DNA of 64,000 nucleotides from Fibrobacter sp. (GTDB lineage Bacteria > Fibrobacterota > Fibrobacteria > Fibrobacterales > Fibrobacteraceae), in NCBI GenBank assembly GCA_024399065.1, contig JAKSIB010000003.1, positions 1-64,000 on the forward strand, written 5' to 3'. The notes below the pieces were generated by a model. It had not been told where the DNA came from and made no database searches. It saw nothing but the letters and a program-made list of their open reading frames with translations. The position numbers were made by a program, and so were the translations under genes. Positions 3,301 through 54,366 of the stretch are shown here, in pieces; the first letter of the stretch is position 1; each line of letters opens with the position of its first letter.

Positions 3301-4640
3301 CTGACGATATCCTCGTCGGTAAGGTTACTCCGAAGGGCGAAACCGAACTTTCTCCTGAAGAACGTTTGCTCCGTGCAATCTTCGGTGAAAAGGCCGGCGA
3401 TGTCCGCGACTCTTCTCTGAAGGCTCCTCCGGGAATGAAGGGCATCGTGCTCGAAACCCGCATCTTCAGCAAGAAGGAAAAGTCTGACAAGAACAGCAAG
3501 GAAAAGGATCAGGAAACTATCGCAGAAATCCGCGCTAACTTCCAGACCCAGATCGACAAGATCAAGGATTCCTGCTCCGAACACTTGTTCGAACTCCTCG
3601 GCGGCAAGGCTGCCGGCAAGGTGATGGACAACGAAACTCACGAACTCCTGATTCGCGAAGGCACTACCTATACCGAACAGAACCTCGCCATGATCGACGT
3701 GACCAAGGTTTCTCCGGCTTCTACCTTCGTTGTCGGCGACGACGAACTCCAGGAACGTGTCCTCACCCTCGTGCTCGTTGCACGTGATAACCTCGATACC
3801 CTTACCCGCACCATGGAAAAGGAAATTGACAAGGTGACTAAGGGCGATGAACTCAAGCCGGGCGTTCTCAAGTCCGTCAAGGTCTACATCGCCAAGAAGC
3901 GTTGCCTCTCCATCGGTGACAAGATGGCAGGTCGCCATGGTAACAAGGGTGTCGTGTCCAAGATCGTTCCGGTCGAAGACATGCCGTTCACCGAAGACGG
4001 TCGTCCGCTTCAGATCCTTCTGAACCCGCTGGGCGTGCCTTCTCGTATGAACATCGGTCAGGTGCTGGAAGTGCACTTGGGCTGGGCTGCAAAGACCCTC
4101 GGCTTCAAGGTTACGACTCCCGTGTTCGACGGTGCAAAGTTCGAAGACATCTGTGAAGAACTTAAGAAGGCTTACGAAAAGAACCCGATCGTTAACTACG
4201 AAATGGATCCGGACAATGGCAAGATCATTGGTAAGGCAAAGCTTTACGACGGTAAGACCGGTGAAGCATTCCTCAACCCGGTTACCATCGGTTACATGTA
4301 CTACCTCAAGCTGGGCCACTTGGTAGACGACAAGATTCATGCTCGTTCTATCGGTTCCTACGCTCTGGTTACTCAGCAGCCTCTCGGCGGTAAGAGCCAG
4401 TTCGGTGGTCAGCGCTTCGGTGAAATGGAAGTGTGGGCTATGGAAGCTTACGGTGCCGCTTACACCTTGCAGGAACTCCTCACCGTCAAGTCTGACGATG
4501 TCCAGGGCCGTTCCAAGGTCTATGACGCCATCGTTCATGGTCAGAACACTCCGAAGCCGGGTGTACCTGAATCCTTTAACGTTATGATCCGCGAAGTTCG
4601 TTCTTTGGGTCTGAACATCCAGACCAATGGAGACAAGTAA
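369..4640 (+). CDS. rpoB: DNA-directed RNA polymerase subunit beta
   Basis: Beta subunit of RNA polymerase, 1423 aa (E. coli 1342), which builds one side of the active-centre cleft. The rifampicin region is near residues 477-505 (SQLSQFMDQMNPLSELTHKR); the residues equivalent to E. coli D516, H526 and S531 are the wild-type D, H and S. The catalytic motif GDKMAGRHGNKG is near residue 1183. The ATG at 369 is chosen because GATGAGG lies 7 nt upstream and the protein then begins MTTERKSYSSNKF; an in-frame TTG at 327 would add 14 unconserved residues. rpoC starts one base after the stop, so the two are probably translationally coupled. Codon use is strongly biased, as in a highly expressed gene. 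Confidence 0.98.
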   Translation: MTTERKSYSSNKFQLELPYLIEVQKASYEQFLQKDIPQEKRLKVGLERVFQDIFPITDVKGLYSLNYEGYYFGIPKYSIPECRERGLTYSMELFATLSLQIFEEDGEDRKLKEEVKNDVLVCELPIMTENGTFIVNGAERVVVSQLHRSYGVSFDKEMQVTGRDDYKSRIIPHRGAWVEFNTEGDILYLIIDRKKKLAASAMLRCIGFETTQDILKLFYKKTETVNVAEMSEQFDENGVCVLIDRIIFEDIIDTSTGEVILEANTVIDEKKLDRLRESSVESIVLLSKEEDNLLIHYTLAADKTKSREDALKAIYSVTHQQQDEAPDMRTAEIYFDSQFISDPHKYDLGEVGRYRLNTKIYNKAEIREVLAELGPEFKIPSLNTMTMSKADFLAIIEYMVGLYNGTEGYALDDIDHLGNRRTRSVGELLANQISVGLSRMSRVIRENLNLHGEDEQTTPRELVNTRMVSTVVQAFFGSSQLSQFMDQMNPLSELTHKRRLSALGPGGLSRERAGFEVRDVHYTHYGRLCPIETPEGPNIGLINSLASFAVVNHFGFIETPYRIVGLIDFKDAKGNTVKVPESKWHFGIFKAFVHDPHLFLELELSKKQMDQVRMTLDNTQRDLFDGFVNKVFAFKDADGQVTYYRNGFTVENFNGKADYEQVGNCVEQIVSDYITFLTADEEDSFRVAPASTELTDDNRFKGDMDGLVIVRDKSEYTHLMRQDSFELDDMETERIDLMDVAPMQIVSVAAGLIPFLEHDDANRALMGSNMQRQAVPLLRAEAPVVGTGLERRAALDSGTVVRAKHDGRVKFVDARNVVVERGDMVDGNFVPLTGLGEDYEFLGKDPIDEYVLRKFERSNQDSCINQKPIVNVGDFVKAGDVLADGVSTDHGELALGKNILIGFLPWNGYNYEDAVIISEELAIKDTFTSIHIEEYELEVRDTKRGPEELTREIPNVGEDALRNLDENGVIRVGAEVTADDILVGKVTPKGETELSPEERLLRAIFGEKAGDVRDSSLKAPPGMKGIVLETRIFSKKEKSDKNSKEKDQETIAEIRANFQTQIDKIKDSCSEHLFELLGGKAAGKVMDNETHELLIREGTTYTEQNLAMIDVTKVSPASTFVVGDDELQERVLTLVLVARDNLDTLTRTMEKEIDKVTKGDELKPGVLKSVKVYIAKKRCLSIGDKMAGRHGNKGVVSKIVPVEDMPFTEDGRPLQILLNPLGVPSRMNIGQVLEVHLGWAAKTLGFKVTTPVFDGAKFEDICEELKKAYEKNPIVNYEMDPDNGKIIGKAKLYDGKTGEAFLNPVTIGYMYYLKLGHLVDDKIHARSIGSYALVTQQPLGGKSQFGGQRFGEMEVWAMEAYGAAYTLQELLTVKSDDVQGRSKVYDAIVHGQNTPKPGVPESFNVMIREVRSLGLNIQTNGDK

Positions 4641-50473: not shown

Positions 50474-51298
50474 TCATGCCGCATTTTCTACACCCACCGT
50501 GGAAGCATTGTCCGTGGTGGGTGCGGCGTTTACCGCTTCGGCAACAGTCGCCGCGTTATCAGTCGCGTTATTCGCCGGGTTCCCGTTTTCTCCCTGTTCG
50601 TTGTTCTTTCGTTCTCGGCGGATCTTGACCTGCAGCTTCTTGGCGACAACGGCCGCGTCCATGCTTTCGAGGAATACCTTGCAGGATTCGCTTCCGGTTG
50701 CCGCCTTGAATGTTGCGGCACCAATCATGATGTTGTATGCGTCGGCGCAGGCGGCGCGCAACTTCTTGCAGTGATCCAGTTCCCTCATGCCGCTTTCCGA
50801 GAACCTGGCCATGTCGGCTTCGATGAACTGGTTGTTTACGCTTTCCAACCTTTCGAGCCATTCCTTGAATCCGCAGGCCTCCAGCTTTTCTGCTTCGATA
50901 TCCTTGATGCCCTGGATGATGTTCAGGATGATACCCGTGGATTGCACCTGGTTGTTATTGAGGGGGGAGGGGCTTTCGCTGAAGATCTTACAGATCAAGG
51001 CTCCTGTTTCGGCGGCGCTTGCGTCGGGGATGCGGGCTGCGGCCTTGGCCACGTTGCGGCATGCCACATAGATCTTGTTGCGTTCCTCGTCCAGGTTCTT
51101 CGCCAAGCTTGCCGTGGTTTCGGTGATGCTTGCTTTCAAGAAGTTGCCCAGGTTCTGCACCGCTGTTTCGTAGTCGGTAATGGCCTGCTGGATTTCCTTG
51201 TCGGTAACCGCCTTGGCGTATTTCACGCCTTCGGTATGAAGGCCGAGGAACTCGTCGTTGCGGAGGGAAGGGAAGTTGATAATAGTCATGTTTTTCAT
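50474..51298 (-). CDS. DUF6261-like helical protein
   Basis: A 274-aa predicted cytoplasmic, mainly helical protein. Its start (MTIINFPSLRNDEFLGLHTE) resembles proteins grouped as DUF6261 in Bacteroidetes, from memory only. Residues about 225-274 are a low-complexity tail rich in Asn, Ala, Thr and Val with repeats of DNAATV/DNASTV. Function unknown. Upstream lies a set of five helically phased GTCAC boxes and then the 43-bp repeat array. Confidence 0.65.
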   Translation of the reverse strand: MKNMTIINFPSLRNDEFLGLHTEGVKYAKAVTDKEIQQAITDYETAVQNLGNFLKASITETTASLAKNLDEERNKIYVACRNVAKAAARIPDASAAETGALICKIFSESPSPLNNNQVQSTGIILNIIQGIKDIEAEKLEACGFKEWLERLESVNNQFIEADMARFSESGMRELDHCKKLRAACADAYNIMIGAATFKAATGSESCKVFLESMDAAVVAKKLQVKIRRERKNNEQGENGNPANNATDNAATVAEAVNAAPTTDNASTVGVENAA

Positions 51299-51347: not shown

Positions 51348-51416
51348 GTCACAGATGGTCACAAACGGTCACGATTGTGTAAAAGTTTATGCCACTTTTG
51401 TCACGTTTTTGTCACG
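51348..51416. promoter_or_regulatory. Five phased GTCAC boxes upstream of DUF6261-like gene
   Basis: GTCACA at 51348 and 51358, GTCACG at 51368, 51400 and 51411, all in the same orientation. Start-to-start spacings of 10, 10, 32 and 11 bp place them on roughly one face of the helix. They begin 50 bp upstream of the minus-strand start codon at 51298. Likely operator sites for a cooperative regulator. Confidence 0.5.
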
Positions 51417-52245
51417 TTTTGACCATTGTATGACACTGTATTTTTGTTGTCATTCATTTGTTTTTCGTGTGGACCATCATGCGCGTAGGAAAATGCTCGG
51501 AAATTTTTAGGCTGCGAATTATTTGTACGAAATCATGTGGCGTTTTTTGCTCTCTGGACCATCTTGTACAAATTAGACGGCGTCCCTTTTTGGCCTTAGG
51601 GCGATCTTTTGCACATTATCCTGCGACAACCTTTTGCCCACGGACGATGATACGCGTATTCTGTACCGTGTGCTTTTGTGACGGTGCCGTGATGCGCGTA
51701 GTCCGTACCGTCCATTTTAGCGACGGTGCCGTGATGCGTGTATTCTGTACCGTATACTTTTTGCGACGGGACCGTGATGCGCGAATTCTGTACCATCTAT
51801 TTTTTGCGATGGGATGATGATGCACGTAATCTGTACCGATCACTTTTTGTAACGGGTCCATGATGCGCGTAATATATATACTCCGCCTTATGCCTGCGGG
51901 CGATTCTACTCGCAATATATAGTGGCCGCCTTTAGCGCATGGCACGGCATTTGCGCATTTTTCTGCGACAATTCATTTTCTACGGATCCCTTTACGTGCA
52001 ATATACGGCAACCGATTTTCACCTGCGGTATATATTGCGTGCAAAACGTAGTGCCGGAATTTTGTTTACGGGCAACCATACGCGCATTACCCCGCGCCGA
52101 CTTTTTTCCGGTGGATGATTCTACGCATATTAAGTACCATCGGCTTTTTACCTGCGGGCGATCCTATGCGCAAAATGCGGCAACGGAATTTTGTCAAATG
52201 AAATCTCTTGCGCATGATGGTGCGCGTGTCGTTTGAAATCCCGCG
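51417..52245. repeat. Array of about 19 degenerate 43-bp units
   Basis: No gene is supportable between 51299 and 52383. T-tracts recur at about 51461, 51504, 51545, 51587, 51632, 51674, 51715, 51759, 51801, 51844, 51887, 51930, 51976, 52016, 52060, 52103, 52145, 52189 and 52232 (mean spacing 42.8 bp, range 40-46). In most units a near-palindromic core (GATGATACGCGTA, TGATGCGCGTA, CCTATGCGCAAAA, CTTGCGCATGATG) sits 12-16 bp after the tract. Units from 51632 to 51844 also share TGTACCGT. Unit lengths vary, so no reading frame is kept; repeats are too divergent and have no spacers for CRISPR. Confidence 0.75.
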
Positions 52246-52383: not shown

Positions 52384-53205
52384 ATGAATAAAAATACAAC
52401 AACTGTTGCTGCAGACATTGATAACGAAATAAAAGTCATCGACTTCTCGAAAATTACCATCACCAACCGCTTCATGTTCCCGCTGGTCATGAGCCACAAG
52501 GAAATCGCCAAGCCCTTCATCGAGGCGGCGCTTGGCATCAAGATCTACGACTTGAAAGACCCCGAGCAGGAAAAGACCGACCAGGTAAGCCTCTTCGGCA
52601 AGAGTGTCCGCTACGACGTCTATGCCCAGGAAATCAGTGAAAAGGGCGAGACTATCCGCACCTTTGACTTGGAAATGCAGGTAAAGGATACCAAGGAATT
52701 GCCGAAGCGAGCACGCTACTATCAGTCGGTCCGCGACACTCACGAGTTGCACAAGGGTGCGCTGTACAGCAATCTCCGTGACCAGTATGTGCTCTTCATC
52801 TGCCCCGACGATATTTTCGGTGCGGGACTGCCTGTCTACAGTTTCCAGAATTATGCTGCCGAAGACAGGAATGTGGCCCTGAATGACCGCACCTTCAAAA
52901 ATTTCTATATATTTAACGAGTACGAAAAGTTACCGGATTCGCACCCCTTGAAACCGTACTTGAAGTATTTCGCCACCAACACCGCAAATTCCTCCGAGAC
53001 GAGGGCTATCCACGACAAAGTGGAATGGTATCGTACGGACGGCTTGACCCAGGAGCGCATCATGACTCATGAACAGGAAATCCAGCTTGCCGCAGCATTC
53101 GCCGAGGAGAAGGAGCGCGAACGCAACGAGAAGATTATTGCCGAGAAGGATGCTGAATTGGCTGCTCTCCGGGCGGAAATAGAACGCCTTAAGAACGCCA
53201 AGTAA
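52384..53205 (+). CDS. Rpn-family PD-(D/E)XK nuclease / putative transposase, copy 1
   Basis: A 273-aa member of the Rpn/PDDEXK_2 family (TIGR01784-like). The nuclease core spans about residues 12-225: NRFMFPLVMSHKEIAKPF at its start, the catalytic Asp in SVRYDVYA and the E-x-Q in FDLEMQVKDTKELPKRARYY. The last ~45 residues are a charged coiled coil. E. coli Rpn proteins are DNA endonucleases linked to recombination and phage defence. The ATG at 52384 follows AAAAGGAC and a conserved leader hairpin. Residues from 13 onward are identical to copy 2 except for a shorter coiled coil. It contains an internal in-frame start at 53062. Confidence 0.85.
   Translation: MNKNTTTVAADIDNEIKVIDFSKITITNRFMFPLVMSHKEIAKPFIEAALGIKIYDLKDPEQEKTDQVSLFGKSVRYDVYAQEISEKGETIRTFDLEMQVKDTKELPKRARYYQSVRDTHELHKGALYSNLRDQYVLFICPDDIFGAGLPVYSFQNYAAEDRNVALNDRTFKNFYIFNEYEKLPDSHPLKPYLKYFATNTANSSETRAIHDKVEWYRTDGLTQERIMTHEQEIQLAAAFAEEKERERNEKIIAEKDAELAALRAEIERLKNAK
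53062..53205 (+). CDS. Possible intragenic C-terminal product of Rpn copy 1
   Basis: In-frame ATG at 53062 with AGGAG at 53051-53055 (6-nt spacing). It would give a 47-aa coiled-coil protein starting MTHEQEIQLAAAFAEE. The same arrangement exists in copies 2 and 3. E. coli Rpn genes are reported to make such a short C-terminal protein that inhibits the full nuclease; here it is inferred. Confidence 0.45.
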   Translation: MTHEQEIQLAAAFAEEKERERNEKIIAEKDAELAALRAEIERLKNAK

Positions 53206-53466: not shown

Positions 53467-54366
53467 ATGAGCGAAAGCATTAAAACGGAAAACATTGGCG
53501 CCGGAATCGCTGACACCGATAACGAAATAAAAGTCATCGACTTCTCGAAAATTACCATCACCAACCGCTTCATGTTCCCGCTGGTCATGAGCCACAAGGA
53601 AATCGCCAAGCCCTTCATCGAGGCGGCGCTTGGCATCAAGATCTACGACTTGAAAGACCCCGAGCAGGAAAAGACCGACCAGGTAAGCCTCTTCGGCAAG
53701 AGTGTCCGCTACGACGTCTATGCCCAGGAAATCAGTGAAAAGGGCGAGACTATCCGCACCTTTGACTTGGAAATGCAGGTAAAGGATACCAAGGAATTGC
53801 CGAAGCGAGCACGCTACTATCAGTCGGTCCGCGACACTCACGAGTTGCACAAGGGTGCGCTGTACAGCAATCTCCGTGACCAGTATGTGCTCTTCATCTG
53901 CCCCGACGATATTTTCGGTGCGGGACTGCCTGTCTACAGTTTCCAGAATTATGCTGCCGAAGACAGGAATGTGGCCCTGAATGACCGCACCTTCAAAAAT
54001 TTCTATATATTTAACGAGTACGAAAAGTTACCGGATTCGCACCCCTTGAAACCGTACTTGAAGTATTTCGCCACCAACACCGCAAATTCCTCCGAGACGA
54101 GGGCTATCCACGACAAAGTGGAATGGTATCGTACGGACGGCTTGACCCAGGAGCGCATCATGACTCATGAACAGGAAATCCAGCTTGCCGCAGCATTCGC
54201 CGAGGAGAAGGAGCGCGAACGCAACGAGAAGATCATCGCCGAGAAGGACAATGCCCTGGCTGAGAAAGATAATGCCTTGGCCGAGAAGGACAATGCCTTG
54301 ATCGAGAAGGATGCTGAATTGGCTGCTCTCCGGGCGGAAATAGAACGCCTTAAGAACGCCAAGTAA
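53467..54366 (+). CDS. Rpn-family PD-(D/E)XK nuclease / putative transposase, copy 2
   Basis: A 299-aa protein identical to copy 1 from the DNEIKVIDF block to EKIIAEKD; the nucleotide sequence is also the same at an offset of 1098 bp wherever I compared it. It differs at the N-terminus (MSESIKTENIGAGIADT) and by 63 extra bases near the end, which add three heptads of the type EKDNALA. The catalytic Asp and E-x-Q are intact. The 3' flank and terminator are also duplicated. This points to recent duplication or gene conversion. An internal in-frame start is at 54160. Confidence 0.85.
   Translation: MSESIKTENIGAGIADTDNEIKVIDFSKITITNRFMFPLVMSHKEIAKPFIEAALGIKIYDLKDPEQEKTDQVSLFGKSVRYDVYAQEISEKGETIRTFDLEMQVKDTKELPKRARYYQSVRDTHELHKGALYSNLRDQYVLFICPDDIFGAGLPVYSFQNYAAEDRNVALNDRTFKNFYIFNEYEKLPDSHPLKPYLKYFATNTANSSETRAIHDKVEWYRTDGLTQERIMTHEQEIQLAAAFAEEKERERNEKIIAEKDNALAEKDNALAEKDNALIEKDAELAALRAEIERLKNAK
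54160..54366 (+). CDS. Possible intragenic C-terminal product of Rpn copy 2
   Basis: ATG 54160 with AGGAG at 54149-54153 (6-nt spacing), giving 68 aa. The three extra EKDNALA heptads fall inside this product, so it is 21 residues longer than its counterpart in copy 1. Confidence 0.45.
   Translation: MTHEQEIQLAAAFAEEKERERNEKIIAEKDNALAEKDNALAEKDNALIEKDAELAALRAEIERLKNAK

Follow-up and report, generated by a model that had tools for sequence, protein, structure and literature searches.

A 43-bp Array beside a DUF6261 Gene

The window, a 64,000-nucleotide stretch of a Fibrobacter genome, contains a tandem array at 51461–52232 (no strand assigned), made of about 18–19 degenerate units with a mean period of 43 bp. 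On one side and divergent from the array lies a minus-strand gene (50474–51298) encoding a 274-aa protein of the family DUF6261 (PF19775, E 2.2e-17), with a profile match of 63.9 bits against a gathering score of 27. The leader of this gene (51400–51464, minus strand), whose end touches the array, is common to two paralogous loci in the same genome at 95 and 91% identity. The neighbor on the far side is a gene for a PDDEXK_2/Rpn-type nuclease (52384–53205, plus strand; E 8.5e-6, just below the curated cut-off). It stands in tandem with a near-identical gene at 53467–54366, which has extra 21-bp (7-aa) repeats near the C terminus; the Rpn leader contains a related TTCTTGCGCA string. The original prediction located the array correctly between the DUF6261 and Rpn genes but missed DUF6261 as the constant partner. 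The far-side gene varies between loci, being a Transposase_31 gene at the paralogous locus L004 and housekeeping genes elsewhere, and we therefore rejected the Rpn gene as the partner of the array.

Within 51417–52245, the identity at lag 43 was 0.462, compared with 0.258 ± 0.016 over 500 dinucleotide-shuffled sequences (z 12.8); in these, the maximum over lags 20 to 129 had a 99.8th percentile of 0.332. The next highest values were found at the harmonics, with 0.420 at lag 86 and 0.397 at lag 129. The autocorrelation thus confirmed the array of ~43 bp as genuine. TRF reported 43 bp × 5.3 copies at 51648–51871 (score 222), as well as an 86-bp version. When 18 T-tract–anchored units were laid out across 51461–52232, the best-kept columns were those of the T-tract, together with a small number of isolated bases. 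The spacings between T-tracts were mostly 39–44 bp, and the irregular stretch, at 51845–51976, has decayed T-tracts.

As the period is not a multiple of three and the unit length varies, the array has no reading frame, and the identical repeats and unique spacers of a CRISPR are absent from it; the anatomy of the array rules out both a coding repeat and CRISPR, as had been claimed. The orthologous locus in genome G034 (L011) has a homologous array with an exact 43-bp triplication at about 4260–4390, reflecting recent unit amplification. The window array is thus a live tandem repeat rather than the remnant of a protein gene. The predicted near-palindromic core fared less evenly. Inverted repeats are weak in the window array (p about 0.03 in one test and 0.07 in another), which makes it an outlier, as most of its relatives have strong ones.

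A candidate promoter, ATGACA-17-TACAAT (51425–51453, minus strand), was found between the array and the DUF6261 gene as a consensus match only. Chance alone would yield about two such matches in the region, but the two hexamers are also present in the leaders of L018 and L051. Given this position, inside the 65-nt leader shared at 91–95% identity, the transcript of the DUF6261 gene probably does not include the window array.

Arrays Accompany DUF6261 Genes in Two Phyla

Each of the nine DUF6261 genes of the window's genome is accompanied on its 5′ side by an array with a period of 42 or 43 bp, the weakest being that of L015. At L004, a period-42 array occupies the same place as the window's, with an unrelated sequence. 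In 464 kb of this genome, including the window, only two noncoding 41- to 43-bp arrays exceeded a z of 6, and both adjoin DUF6261 genes; L242, the third such gene in the sample, has only a degenerate array, as seen at L005 and L015. DUF6261 was detected in 39 of 168 Fibrobacterota genomes, and most of the loci examined carry arrays of 41–43 bp. A scan of genome contigs recovered relatives in Fibrimonas, Bacteroidales, Prevotellaceae, Alistipes, Paludibacter, and Parabacteroides, with arrays mostly of 41–43 bp and 5′ of the gene. Ten Bacteroidota genomes reached via these loci have 1 to 38 copies of DUF6261 each, and some gut Bacteroidales carry 14–38 loci combining the gene and an array.

With all lags from 28 to 61 tested, the best lag was 40–43 in 68 of the 70 Bacteroidales DUF6261 loci, where L185 was read from its two separate arrays (both of its genes have one). 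In Bacteroidales and the window's genome, the arrays are usually directly 5′ of the DUF6261 start codon, and many of those in Bacteroidales and Fibrimonas stop 12–50 nt before the ATG; at three loci (L072, L082, and L091), the array is 3′ of the gene. The window array thus exemplifies a two-part locus not described before, which consists of a DUF6261 gene and its own tandem array of ~42-bp units and is present in two phyla, Fibrobacterota and Bacteroidota. A search of the open literature returned no description of such arrays and no function for DUF6261, the name being found in a single paper on an unrelated subject.

We found DUF6261 without an array in one Fibrobacter subgroup (L038–L042 and L045), at the single locus L037, and in the phage-collection record L054; a few contig-end or partial loci are further exceptions. 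Several arrays lie at contig ends (G034 C36:1–228 and C7:1–130; L033 and L034), suggesting that they probably break assemblies and are undercounted in draft genomes. Viral contigs contained no relatives, and the phage collection gave only the weak, array-less L054, on which grounds we rejected a phage origin. In this record, an HU-HIG gene is placed just upstream.

The DUF6261 Protein

The AlphaFold2 model of the window's DUF6261 protein is all-helical and confident (pLDDT 84; 86 for a second model), with blocks above 90 over most of residues 10–230; its final helix is long and is followed by a disordered tail. Searches of the PDB and viral folds with Foldseek and VIA-align returned generic helical bundles only, and a PDB sequence search found no relative. 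DUF6261 was the sole significant Pfam family of the protein, and neither a Nop nor a Cas domain was matched. Many Fibrobacter DUF6261 proteins (L017, L018, L016, L043, L047, L030, and others) end in ...ENAA or ...INAA after a variable low-complexity linker, recalling C-terminal degradation tags. Among the copies of Parabacteroides sp. An277 (L133, L143, L152, and L163–L190), most share a near-identical C-terminal domain of ~105 aa, with weak, below-threshold similarity to the Ig-like DUF4469, next to strongly divergent N-terminal DUF6261 parts, as if the tails had been homogenized by gene conversion.

Unit Geometry and Inverted Repeats

Across 109 arrays with 790 units (median 7 per array), the spacing between units was 41–43 bp in 96% of the cases and averaged 41.72 bp, equal to four helical turns at about 10.5 bp; the proposal of four turns, made for the 43-bp period of the window array, thus extends to its relatives. 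In most arrays, the unit combines two inverted repeats: the main one, whose ~6-bp arms flank a center of about 4 nt, and a second one half a period away, at a mean distance of 21.2 bp. Arm complementarity was on average 0.70, compared with 0.57 in column-permuted arrays, and exceeded 0.7 in 51% of the observed and 7% of the permuted arrays. The surroundings of the main dyad show a recurrent weak consensus, CTTTC..GAAAG or CTTGC..GCAAG. Within a unit, one dyad does not share its half-sites with the other (p 0.68), and a homodimer operator with one shared half-site was rejected for this reason. Significant dyads were absent in the arrays of L018, L021, L083, L089, and L093. Units of one array resemble each other along their whole length, agreeing with the consensus at 66–96% and leaving no spacer columns.

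Arrays Evolve Faster Than the Protein

Array sequences differ completely between loci, even next to proteins that are 99% identical, and, as judged from these comparisons, the array changes much faster than the DUF6261 protein. Pairs of loci with closely similar proteins showed different outcomes. The arrays of L165 and L167 (protein identity above 90%) are alike; at L163/L164 and L111/L114, also above 90%, the consensuses, read by eye, have kept the frame with both dyad arms replaced together; and at L021/L022 (99%) and L055/L095 (90%), the arrays are unrelated. L027 and L028 share both flanks (92% identity on the left and 99% on the right), and their arrays, of periods 43 and 42, have nothing in common. 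Compensatory arm changes were also seen between the related arrays of L030 and L070.

Solitary Arrays in Parabacteroides

We found 7 DUF6261-linked arrays and at least 18 solitary arrays, the latter beside unrelated genes and with no DUF6261 remnants found next to them, in 400 kb of Parabacteroides sp. An277 (G169). The corresponding numbers of solitary arrays were three in Parabacteroides faecalis, none in a Paludibacter, and zero and one in two other Bacteroidales samples. The solitary arrays of Parabacteroides adjoin unrelated housekeeping genes, often between convergent genes, and contradict the idea that arrays are exclusive to the DUF6261 neighborhood. The two Parabacteroides genomes together contributed 21 solitary arrays, of which eight scored at least 16 (maximum 40 of 42) when compared with the DUF6261-linked arrays in the same genome. 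One of the 21 did so against the other Parabacteroides genome, and shuffled units scored at most 16. Array classes are thus private to the genome and, at least partly, to the paralogue. In Fibrobacter, the arrays of L028 and L004 matched no other array in their own genome, and we rejected a regulon of dispersed operators for this genus; the L028 array had no other notable match among Fibrobacter genomes and no match in phages.

DNA Element or RNA

The original prediction named an RNA of repeated units among its options, and the arrays could be transcribed as tandem hairpins that bind DUF6261, similarly to type III toxin–antitoxin systems, or act as 5′-UTR regulators. The placement of many arrays directly 5′ of the gene, 12–50 nt from the ATG and with promoter motifs at the 5′ edge, is consistent with this, as are the 41- to 43-nt units that are near-identical within many arrays and private to the locus, the covarying arms, and the common ~4-nt loops. 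RNA-paired arms are expected to tolerate G–U far better than A–C. However, the inverted-repeat mismatches within arrays comprised 77 G–T and 79 A–C events, although the neutral drift of single units in a redundant array could equalize the types; the count between arm consensuses, less exposed to this, was 23 G–T and 36 A–C. G–U was thus not in excess in any class, and we disfavored RNA stems on this ground.

The promoter positions point in the same direction. If an array reaches up to the ATG, the –7 elements of Bacteroidota (TAnnTTTG) are found at its 5′ edge (8 sense vs. 2 antisense), but at the 34 loci with a gap of at least 60 bp between the array and the start codon, they are concentrated within the gap (15 vs. 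5), which is also the place of the candidate promoter in the window. Adjacency to a promoter is therefore constant for the arrays, and cotranscription with the gene is not. The antisense strand folded with slightly higher stability, an effect that its composition may explain, and an Rfam search returned no match. The equal numbers of G–T and A–C mismatches and the many arrays outside the DUF6261 transcript, some upstream of the promoter and those of three loci downstream of the gene, favor a DNA element, and we regard an RNA as unlikely. The likeness to type III toxin–antitoxin systems (ToxIN, CptIN, and TenpIN) lies in repeats of a few tens of nucleotides 5′ of a single gene, forming private pairs with many per genome. 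Beyond the transcript positions and the missing G–U signature, the protein differs: ToxN-type endoribonuclease toxins fold as a compact barrel, unlike the all-helical DUF6261 models.

Comparison with Other Repeat Systems

Arrays could also be mobile or copied palindromic repeats, similar to REP/BIME elements, with DUF6261 as their spreading or maintenance factor. With REP elements and their RAYT (TnpA-REP) proteins, the loci share private palindromic intergenic repeats in alternating orientation and, in Parabacteroides, the combination of a linked gene and dispersed copies. The same-class solitary arrays beside housekeeping genes and between convergent genes, and the pair L027/L028, where shared flanks enclose unrelated arrays in a pattern resembling array exchange, are in line with such copying. 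The DUF6261 loci nevertheless have no Y1 (HUH) transposase, and the protein, modeled as helical, has neither the family nor the fold of one; the GTAG/CGTC foot of the palindrome is absent, the arrays having CTTTC..GAAAG or CTTGC..GCAAG instead; and the arrays are strictly 42-bp tandem and mostly confined to the DUF6261 locus. Moreover, solitary arrays were lacking in 464 kb of the window's genome and in several Bacteroidales samples, and two Fibrobacter arrays (L028 and L004) are found nowhere else in their own genome. We consider this origin rather improbable.

A guide-RNA array of the TIGR-Tas or CRISPR kind could be suspected from tandem units of ~42 nt beside the gene of a helical protein, and some Tas clades have stem-loop arrays with palindromic units similar to those seen here (PMC12045711). 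In TIGR-Tas, however, edge and loop repeats alternate with variable spacers of about 9 nt (PMC12045711), whereas the units of a DUF6261 array are alike and leave no room for unique spacers. As the protein also lacks a match to Nop or Cas domains and the L028 array had no notable match in the genus and none in phages, a guide function is very improbable. Tandem duplication does occur, as the exact triplication in G034 demonstrates, but the same 40- to 43-bp period is seen across two phyla next to a single gene family, in arrays whose sequences are unrelated and whose periods are not divisible by three. This leaves next to no room for neutral slippage or the decay of a coding repeat, both of which are refuted by the statistics on period and linkage. 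Centromere-type and operator arrays (parC, parS, and iterons) are similar in the helical phasing of their repeats and in their place next to a gene for a presumed binding protein, but the DUF6261 loci that we read have no ParA or ParM neighbor, reach 38 chromosomal copies, and contain sequences not fixed by the protein. Type III toxin–antitoxin systems, TIGR-Tas, REP/RAYT, and CRISPR each share one aspect with the DUF6261 loci, and each fail in a defining feature that was tested.

DUF6261 as a Candidate Array-Binding Protein

A multisite binding platform, already proposed for the window array, is still a leading reading. We give a probability of roughly one half to the array being the DNA half of the two-part locus, on which DUF6261 would assemble as a DNA-binding protein that reads the spacing and the dyads. 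The protein would be placed on the array at about one protomer per two helical turns and in alternating orientation, bringing all protomers to one face of the helix, and would recognize the spacing, the dyad geometry, and a few bases and not a fixed sequence. The array adjoins the promoter of the DUF6261 gene, from one side or the other, which suggests that the first role of the complex is probably autoregulation. In Parabacteroides, with its dispersed arrays of the same class, the complex may additionally mark chromosomal sites that are insulated from those of other paralogues.

The main difficulty of the DNA-assembly reading is the presence of unrelated arrays beside near-identical proteins (L021/L022 and L055/L095). 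Such pairs argue against sequence-specific recognition and leave structure-specific recognition as the fallback; the reading thus needs recognition at the level of structure or a recent exchange of arrays. The unlike half-sites, the dyad-poor arrays, the weak dyads of the window array itself, and the DUF6261 loci without arrays also count against it.

More tentatively, the loci may form a chromosomal system of wide distribution, with every DUF6261 paralogue having its private partner in a rapidly evolving DNA array that carries dyads every two turns, so that the protein would read the geometry and the array would provide the identity. If this is true, one genome could run dozens of mutually insulated protein–DNA assemblies in parallel. 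A noncoding partner of constant geometry is the first functional handle on the DUF6261 family, and it poses the problem of a nucleic-acid partner that is fixed in its spacing and symmetry and yet free in its sequence.
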